A DNA stretch of 64,000 nt from Chloroflexota bacterium. GTDB lineage: Bacteria > Chloroflexota > Chloroflexia > Chloroheliales > Chloroheliaceae. Every line of letters begins with the position of its first letter. Positions within the stretch are counted from its first letter, which is position 1. The DNA is taken from contig CADDZM010000002.1 of NCBI GenBank assembly GCA_902812345.1, positions 1-64,000 on the forward strand, read 5' to 3'. Positions 26,398 through 28,413 of the stretch are shown here, in pieces. The position numbers were made by a program, and so were the translations under genes. Below the pieces are notes generated by a model that made no database searches, was not told the origin of the DNA, and worked only from the letters and a program-made list of their open reading frames with translations.

Positions 26398-26663
26398 ATA
26401 AAAATAAAGCCGGTAGTCAAGGGCTACCGCCCTTTAACCTTTCATGAGTCATGAATTGTCCACATTGGGCAAGTAGGACTAAAGTAGTAGGATAATTCTC
26501 CTGTATTTTCTTCTGCTTAAAAGTGAGATATAATTACCACATAAGCTTAGCAAACCAGCCGGTTCAAGCTATAGTACCGTTGAACTAAAATCCTAACTTT
26601 ATAGTTGGATAATTTCTTATTAGCATAATTCTATCGGAACAGGCAAGATAGGGGCGGCTTTAC

Positions 26664-28031
26664 ATGACAATTGTTGCCTTAATTGGCGGGCAATGGGGCG
26701 AAGAAGGCAAAGGCAAGCTAACCGAACTGCTGGGCGAACAGGCCAAAGTAGTCGTCCGGTTCAGCGGCGGCGGCAATCCTCGCCAGCCGGTAGATAATAA
26801 GTACGGCTCTTTTAATCTAAAATATATTCCCCGCAGCATTTTTAATTCCAGGACAATTACGGTCCTGGGCGCGGGCATGGTTATAGACCCGCACAAGCTG
26901 GTGGAAGAACGCCAGGCTCTACGCCACGCCGGGGTGGATATGCGCCGCTTTTATATCAGCGAACAGGCCCACGTCGTTATGCCCTATCATTTGCTGCTGG
27001 ATGAAGCCGAACGCATAGCCTATAACACGCCCCTGGTAGACTCGGCGGGGGGCGGTCTCAGCCAGGCCTACGCCGACAAAACCAAACGCATCGGCATCCG
27101 GGTCTGCGACCTGTTGCAGGAAGAATTCTTTTTGCAGCGTCTTTCCAGGAATTTAGCCGTAAAAAACGAAATCCTGAAAGTCTTCGGGCTTCCGCCGCTC
27201 AAACTCCAATCTGTCTATAGCGAATACCTGGCTTACGGGCGCGAACTGCGCGAACATGTCTTTGATACGCGCCTGATTTTGCAGCGAGCTATCGAGAGCG
27301 GCCACCACATCCTGCTCGAAAGCGACCAGGGTTCTATGTTGGACGAAAATTTCGGGGCGTACCCGTACATTTCCAACGCCGCTCCCACGGTAGGGGCCGC
27401 CAGCAGCAGTTCGGGCGTGCCGCCTTCCGCGATTACCGCCGCCGTTGGTATCTTTAGCGCCTACATCACCCGCCTCCAGGACGGCCCCTTCCCGACCGAA
27501 ATGCAGCCCAACGAAAGCCTGCCGCTTTTCAACTTGCGTCTTATAAACAAGAACATGGCCCAGGGCCGGACCACCGGCGCACCTGCCATGACTTCCACGC
27601 TTGGTGAAAACACCCGGCGCTTCGGCTGGTTTGACGCTGTGGCCGCCCGCTTCGTGGTCCAGTTAAACGGCCTGACCTCGGTGGCTCTGACCCAGCTTGA
27701 CGGCCTGGACAGCTTTGAAACCATTCGCATTTGCACCGAGTACCAGGTCCATGATGCCGCCCTGACCCGATTTCCTTCCGACCTGGCGACTCTTAAGGTA
27801 GTCCGCCCGGTTTATTTGGAAATGCCCGGTTGGCAGTCGTCGACCAGCCATGTCAACAACTTCGCGGCTTTACCGTCCAACTGCCAGAACTTTATCTTCA
27901 AGCTGCAATCCCTTATCGGGGTCAGGGTGGATATGATTTCGACCGGGGCGGAGTTTGCCGACACTATTACTTTGCGCGACCCCTTTAATGTGCTGGGGCC
28001 AGCTCGGCGCACCGTGCAGCTTGCCCCTTAA
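26664..28031 (+). CDS. Adenylosuccinate synthetase-family protein with altered active site
   Basis: A 455-residue protein that aligns with PurA along its full length (PurA makes adenylosuccinate from IMP, Asp and GTP). The opening is IGGQWGEEGKGK, and LLDEAERIAY, RVCDLL, LDENFGAYPYIS, FGWFDAVA, EMPGWQSST and ISTGAEF all have PurA counterparts. Several key residues differ by eye alignment to E. coli numbering: catalytic Asp13 is Glu; His41 of NAGHT is Gln (NPRQP); the IMP-phosphate motif TTGRGIGP reads SAGGGLSQ; Arg303 appears to be Asn; and the guanine-recognition TKLD reads TQLD. Gln224, Arg143 and Arg305 seem kept. It is therefore probably not an ordinary PurA: either an altered ligase with another base or nucleotide triphosphate, or inactive. 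It stands between malQ and an fmdB-like gene. Confidence 0.85.
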   Translation: MTIVALIGGQWGEEGKGKLTELLGEQAKVVVRFSGGGNPRQPVDNKYGSFNLKYIPRSIFNSRTITVLGAGMVIDPHKLVEERQALRHAGVDMRRFYISEQAHVVMPYHLLLDEAERIAYNTPLVDSAGGGLSQAYADKTKRIGIRVCDLLQEEFFLQRLSRNLAVKNEILKVFGLPPLKLQSVYSEYLAYGRELREHVFDTRLILQRAIESGHHILLESDQGSMLDENFGAYPYISNAAPTVGAASSSSGVPPSAITAAVGIFSAYITRLQDGPFPTEMQPNESLPLFNLRLINKNMAQGRTTGAPAMTSTLGENTRRFGWFDAVAARFVVQLNGLTSVALTQLDGLDSFETIRICTEYQVHDAALTRFPSDLATLKVVRPVYLEMPGWQSSTSHVNNFAALPSNCQNFIFKLQSLIGVRVDMISTGAEFADTITLRDPFNVLGPARRTVQLAP

Positions 28032-28164
28032 TTCCTCAAGATGTTATAATTCAGGTGGGGGCTGCTTAAAGCCTGTTTGAGGTAGGGTGAAAAGCTATTT
28101 CAAGCTTCTTGCGACCCGCCCATTGCTGCTTTTTATTGAATTTTATTTTAGATGTGGTGACACA

Positions 28165-28413
28165 ATGCCTGTTTATGCATATCGCTGCTCCGAATGCGGC
28201 TCGACCTACGAGCGCCTGCGCGGCATAACCGCCGAGGACAAAGAAATTGATTGCCCCGAATGCGGGCAGGGCGGCCGGGCCAAACGGCTGCTAAGTAGTT
28301 TTACCGCTTTTAGCAAGACCGGCGGGATTACCCGGCCAACCAATACGGCGCCTGCCGGTAACGGCAACAGCTTTGGGGCTTGCAACCACGGCAACTGCGG
28401 CTGCCATCACTAA
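28165..28413 (+). CDS. FmdB-type zinc-ribbon protein
   Basis: An 82-residue protein starting MPVYAYRCSECGSTYERLRG at ATG 28165, with GGTGA upstream. Two CxxC pairs (CSEC and CPEC) make the FmdB/CxxC-CxxC zinc ribbon. The C-terminus is Gly/Asn/Cys-rich (CNHGNCGCHH), which adds metal-binding capacity. Proteins of this family are named after a putative regulator of formamidase genes; the true role is generally unknown. A longer frame from 28087 is possible but lacks family similarity. It is 8 bp from the next gene, so they are co-transcribed. Confidence 0.85.
   Translation: MPVYAYRCSECGSTYERLRGITAEDKEIDCPECGQGGRAKRLLSSFTAFSKTGGITRPTNTAPAGNGNSFGACNHGNCGCHH

Follow-up and report, generated by a model that had tools for sequence, protein, structure and literature searches.

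A PurA paralog with altered catalytic residues in Ca. Chloroheliales, probably a displaced native enzyme retained as a pseudo-synthetase

Adenylosuccinate synthetase (PurA; PF00709, NF002223/TIGR00184) is a near-universal housekeeping enzyme. In the E. coli PurA numbering used here, we take Asp13 to be the catalytic base and a Mg ligand, and His41 to be the catalytic acid. PurZ and PurZ0 (NF038379), the phage and archaeal 2-aminoadenine enzymes, belong to the same superfamily. Conservation of Asp13 in prokaryotic PurA reaches 99%; in PurZ this position is occupied by Ser, rarely Gly (PMC12884076). Catalytically dead paralogs under selection beside an active enzyme are known from the trypanosomatid prozyme of AdoMetDC and from the inactive paralog of DHS, and in both cases the heteromer is proven (PMC5201418, PMC3663545).

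The window, a stretch of 64,000 nucleotides from a Chloroflexota bacterium (contig C2 of a 6.7 Mb assembly with 674 contigs), carried a PurA-like gene that could be compared with each of these systems. Its product shared with PurA the full-length fold, the P-loop, Glu14, Lys16, Lys140, Arg143, Gln224 and Asp333, but it was changed at Asp13, Asp21, Gly40, His41, Thr42, Thr129, the TTGR loop and Arg303, scored below the NCBIfam equivalog cut-offs and always occurred beside a separate PurA. Like PurZ, it belonged to the PurA superfamily, had a residue other than Asp at position 13 and was changed in the Arg303 region. However, PurZ keeps His41, whereas the paralog had Glu13 and Gln41; moreover, its gene was chromosomal and native by phylogeny, and no Z-DNA genes were seen. 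In contrast to the prozyme and DHS pairs, the active copy here belonged to another clade, and an interaction between the two copies would be hypothetical. The native PurA copies designated 'b' in the Chloroflexota family f30 were similar in standing beside a seemingly foreign PurA and in their acidic residue 127, degraded 298-304 loop and low dN/dS, but they mostly kept Asp13 and His41 and were not sister to the Chloroheliales paralog.

The gene, its fold and its altered active site

The following features were identified in the window.

26650..26654, + strand: AGGGG, a possible ribosome-binding site 9 nt 5' of the ATG (sequence reading)
26664..28031, + strand: PurA-fold paralog of 455 aa, an intact ORF with an ATG start; probably a displaced native PurA and putative pseudo-synthetase
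26685..26717, + strand: P-loop GGQWGEEGKGK with Asp13 changed to Glu (codon 26700-26702), Glu14 and Lys16 kept (alignment)
26772..26789, + strand: switch loop GNPRQP replacing NNAGHT, with the changes G40R, H41Q (26784-26786) and T42P (alignment)
27039..27065, + strand: former IMP-phosphate loop, DSAGGGLSQ replacing GTTGRGIGP (alignment)
27318..27329, + strand: ESDQ replacing EGAQ, with Gln224 retained and with G222S and A223D fixed across the five orthologs (alignment)
27573..27611, + strand: site of the former aspartate loop (TTGRR), now carrying an insertion, variable among orthologs and of low model confidence (residues 304-316; alignment and AlphaFold model)
27690..27701, + strand: guanine-site motif TQLD, Asp333 equivalent kept (alignment)
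28159..28413, + strand: FmdB-type zinc-ribbon protein just 3' of the paralog, a neighbour within the genus only and not across genera

PF00709 was the sole Pfam domain of the window protein (395.9 bits, profile positions 2-416 of 416). This confirmed the full-length alignment with PurA proposed by the first-pass annotation, which had been made from the letters of the sequence, and together with the predicted fold it placed the protein in the PurA superfamily. The scores against the PurA equivalog models were below their cut-offs (392.3 against 402 for NF002223 and 348.7 against 395.55 for TIGR00184), and the score against the PurZ/PurZ0 model NF038379 was 52.4 against a cut-off of 300. Thus, the window protein was not PurZ, and the annotation was right that its set of changes differed from that of the phage enzymes. 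Identity of the paralog to Chloroflexia PurA was 42-45%. The AlphaFold model (pLDDT 83, pTM 0.84) predicted a PurA fold that was closest to PurA 4m0g among the solved PurA structures (TM 0.93), compared with about 0.7 for PurZ. There were 42 residues with pLDDT <50 in this model, against 11 in a canonical control built from the same rows, and most of them lay in the C-terminal tail and in the loops that formerly bound IMP and aspartate.

Residues were numbered through alignments anchored on E. coli PurA that included five orthologs from three genera. Ten substitutions were identical in all five (D13E, D21E, G40R, H41Q, T42P, G127D, G222S, A223D, T239S and G274Q), so that Glu and Gln stood at the two catalytic positions in every ortholog. 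Since the motifs aligned unambiguously, no shifted equivalents of Asp13 or His41 were present, and the earlier reading of these two changes, of SAGGGLSQ in place of TTGRGIGP and of retained Gln224, Arg143 and Arg305 in the window protein was borne out. The paralog also retained the P-loop (GEEGKGK), Lys140, Arg147, Leu228 and Asp333. Among the paralogs, the GTP site was preserved, with G12, E14, G15, K16, G17 and D333 invariant. The contacts to the IMP phosphate and to aspartate were lost or variable: the Thr129 position was occupied by A, V, P, L and L in the five orthologs, and the TTGR loop had become a longer, variable stretch. Arg303 was lost in four of the five, including the window protein, and Arg305 was kept in four, again including the window protein. 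The annotated change of Arg303 to Asn therefore held with respect to the loss, but the aligned partner could be Asn or Ala, since about 10-12 inserted residues lay just before it. Similarly, TKLD did read TQLD as annotated, but canonical PurAs have L, S or R at position 331 and the change was not diagnostic.

Among 77 near-invariant PurA sites, 49 were kept, 19 were variable and nine were uniformly replaced in all five orthologs, the last group including D13E, D21E, G40R, H41Q, G127D and T239S. Ligand contacts accounted for 12 of the 28 changed sites and 8 of the 49 kept sites (p = 0.015, with a contact list drawn up from the known PurA active site and not from coordinates). By the same list, the nucleotide-site residues were kept and almost all IMP and aspartate contacts were lost, several of them in ways that differed among the orthologs.

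Distribution, origin and selection of the two copies

All five genomes examined from Ca. Chloroheliales, the former order 54-19 that lies beside Chloroflexales in the species tree (PMC10972752), had one paralog and one separate PurA; the relatives included Chloroflexi bacterium 54-19 and Ca. Chloroheliaceae L227-5C. The paralogs of these genomes were 60-100% identical to the window protein. The second PurA was complete in four genomes and interrupted by a contig end in that of the window, so a canonical purA, which the annotation had suggested looking for, was present there as well. These second copies retained Asp13, Asn38, His41, Thr129 and Gln224 and had Tyr at position 143. Beyond the order, the best matches in 158 genomes searched across the class were at most 45% identical to the paralog and canonical where read. 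Among 400 genomes of the phylum, PurA matches to a WGEEGKG DNA pattern were confined to Ca. Chloroheliales, and the single match elsewhere was not a PurA. No relatives of the paralog were found in viral contigs, and phage and plasmid matches were below 60% identity and mostly host-like purA. On these grounds and on the poor PurZ score, a phage origin and an identity as PurZ were rejected.

In maximum-likelihood trees, the paralogs were nested within the Chloroflexia PurA clade (support 97/97, or 99/97 for a different set of rows). The canonical Chloroheliales copies grouped with families f29 and f19 of Chloroflexota (100/100). The paralog stem was long (0.88, or about 0.9) and lay near G089 of family f8; owing to this length, the exact position inside the Chloroflexia clade had weak support (80/78 or 92/62). 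Duplication within the family, with paralog and canonical copy as one clade, was rejected by the AU test (dlnL 90, p-AU 1.75e-66). By phylogeny, then, the odd protein was the native Chloroflexia PurA, and since the canonical copy belonged to another clade, it was probably acquired. The simplest reading of the trees would be a displacement in which the native copy was retained after a foreign PurA had assumed its function.

The paralog was a maintained protein under strong purifying selection: dN/dS within the genus was 0.07-0.10, compared with 0.04 for the canonical copy. Identity across genera was 59-66% for the paralog and 68-71% for the canonical copy, a gap of 6-9 points. The annotated absence of random decay was thus supported by the intact frame, the low dN/dS and one ortholog per genome, but the codon use, described there as that of a well-expressed gene, was merely ordinary (third-position GC 0.68, similar to adjoining genes).

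The gene neighbourhood changed from genus to genus. In that of the window, the paralog was followed by the FmdB-type zinc ribbon and then by a protein of 289 aa that matched no Pfam model. In G003 (Chlorohelix-like), it was located 75 bp after dnaJ (locus L074), directly behind hrcA-grpE-dnaJ, and may be co-expressed with this chaperone operon. G004 had neither arrangement beside its paralog. A conserved operon partner among the Ca. Chloroheliales loci was therefore ruled out, and with no neighbour common to all genera no partner could be named. Each genome of the order encoded only one PurB above the cut-off. A second PurB-like lyase, scoring about 235-244 bits and below that cut-off (L120, L121, L122), was found in the window's genus and was absent from the other two. 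Since no extra PurB-type lyase was shared by all genera, a second lyase acting on a new succinyl product was ruled out.

Possible roles of the displaced copy

The explanation that we consider probable is that this displaced native PurA has lost its chemistry and survives as a conserved pseudo-synthetase that probably binds GTP or GDP and has a role in regulation or structure. The gene would be the vertically inherited PurA of Chloroflexia, and a PurA from another clade would have taken over AMP synthesis in the Ca. Chloroheliales ancestor. The old copy may then have lost adenylosuccinate chemistry together with Asp13, His41, the IMP phosphate contacts and the aspartate loop, keeping its fold, P-loop and guanine-site Asp333; it would have changed along the long stem branch and been conserved afterwards. 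Loss of the catalytic motifs, purifying selection and a separate PurA with Asp13 and His41 alongside are the features of a pseudoenzyme. The conserved surface and fold could serve regulation or assembly, for example by binding GTP, GDP or ppGpp and acting on the canonical PurA or another partner. Inhibition of PurA by ppGpp has been reported (Stayton and Fromm, 1979, a reference listed in PMC10912719), so that a nucleotide sensor would be a natural guess for the paralog.

The first-pass annotation had instead suggested the possibility of a ligase that joins an amino acid to another purine or nucleotide with another NTP as donor. In its broader form, a working ligase for an amino acid or other amine and a different nucleotide would have a new site formed by Glu13, Arg40, Gln41, Asp127, Ser222 and Asp223, and we regard it as unlikely, if the most serious of the rivals. 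Replacement of nine former invariants by a single residue each in all five orthologs could mean new fixed chemistry, the P-loop and Gln224 were kept under strong purifying selection, and PurZ is a precedent for activity with an altered position 13 (PMC8342488, PMC12884076). On the other hand, the donor elements (P-loop, Asp333) were exactly those retained, whereas the acceptor and amino-acid sites (128-131 with Thr129, the 298-304 loop, Arg303) and Lys331 varied among the five orthologs, and Arg305 differed in one. Such variability fits a loss of chemistry better than a single new specificity. Moreover, no second lyase was common to all genera, and no conserved neighbours pointed to a pathway. 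A new ligase was thus less supported than a GTP/GDP-binding pseudo-synthetase. An unchanged function, with the paralog making adenylosuccinate despite its unusual residues, would agree with the overall fold and with an NF002223 score of 392 bits, just below the cut-off; we consider it very unlikely given the near-universal Asp13 of prokaryotic PurA, the changes at the two catalytic residues and in the aspartate loop, and the constant presence of a PurA with Asp13 and His41 (five of five genomes).

The paralog might also form a hetero-oligomer with the canonical PurA, as an obligate or activating subunit like the prozyme, and may supply Arg143 in trans. The canonical Chloroheliales PurA carried R143Y while the paralog retained Lys140, Arg143 and Arg147, and dead activating paralogs have the precedents cited above. 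However, R143Y was also present in genomes of f29 and f19 for which only one PurA was detected, so Tyr143 alone needs no partner, and complementation of Arg143 was weakened as a reason for retention. In addition, Asp231, presumably a PurA interface residue, was Asn in the window's genus. This partnership therefore appears improbable, more so than the ligase. Finally, an old copy often decays after xenologous displacement, and several former active-site positions were variable; yet the gene was intact in five assemblies and well conserved across genera, and a decaying gene heading for loss, which the dN/dS values largely refute, is the least credible explanation of all.

The displaced pseudo-synthetase points to a previously undescribed non-catalytic job; a literature search, with most subscription journals outside its coverage, found no papers on a PurA pseudoenzyme. 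A foreign enzyme responsible for catalysis next to a preserved old protein would separate PurA chemistry from any other role, making Ca. Chloroheliales a natural test for a non-catalytic PurA function. Ca. Chlorohelix, a culturable phototroph with a type I reaction centre, belongs to this order, and the protein is thus accessible to proteomics. It also calls for caution in annotation, where both copies would be named purA.

Family f30 and other unusual PurA proteins

Family f30 was a second case, in one clade and by one event, of a displaced native PurA retained with an altered, though more mildly altered, active site. In f30, a family with large genomes, some members carried the native PurA 'b' together with an 'a' copy that belonged to another clade in the maximum-likelihood tree. 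The 'b' copies (L095, L097-L101) had an acidic residue 127 and a degraded aspartate loop (298-304), and only one of them (L095, in G397) had Gly13 and Gln303. Single-copy f30 genomes had Gly127 and an intact 298-304 loop. In the one 'b' pair measured, dN/dS was 0.067, similar to 'a' pairs. It is conceivable, though we hold it only tentatively, that displaced native PurA repeatedly became a conserved guanine-nucleotide-binding regulator in Chloroflexota, fully non-catalytic in Ca. Chloroheliales and milder in f30. If so, PurA would have an old second, non-catalytic role, such as GTP/ppGpp sensing via protein contacts, that outlived catalytic takeover by a foreign enzyme.

Several minor observations were made on the same proteins. 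Where checked, a membrane spermidine-synthase-like gene was located upstream of the f30 'b' copies in most genomes. In one single-contig genome (G465:C1:4440227-4441476; L103, L109), the native PurA 'b' was split into two overlapping frames, reflecting a frameshift or a sequencing error, and the f30 'a' copies had Leu at position 224. In f19 (L046-L063), the sole PurA found carried Q224M, G222Q and R143Y, an unusual combination if the enzyme has to function by itself. Finally, a short PurZ-like PurA with Ser13 (L107; G182:C15:5288-6208) in a Chloroflexota assembly was possibly a prophage purZ.
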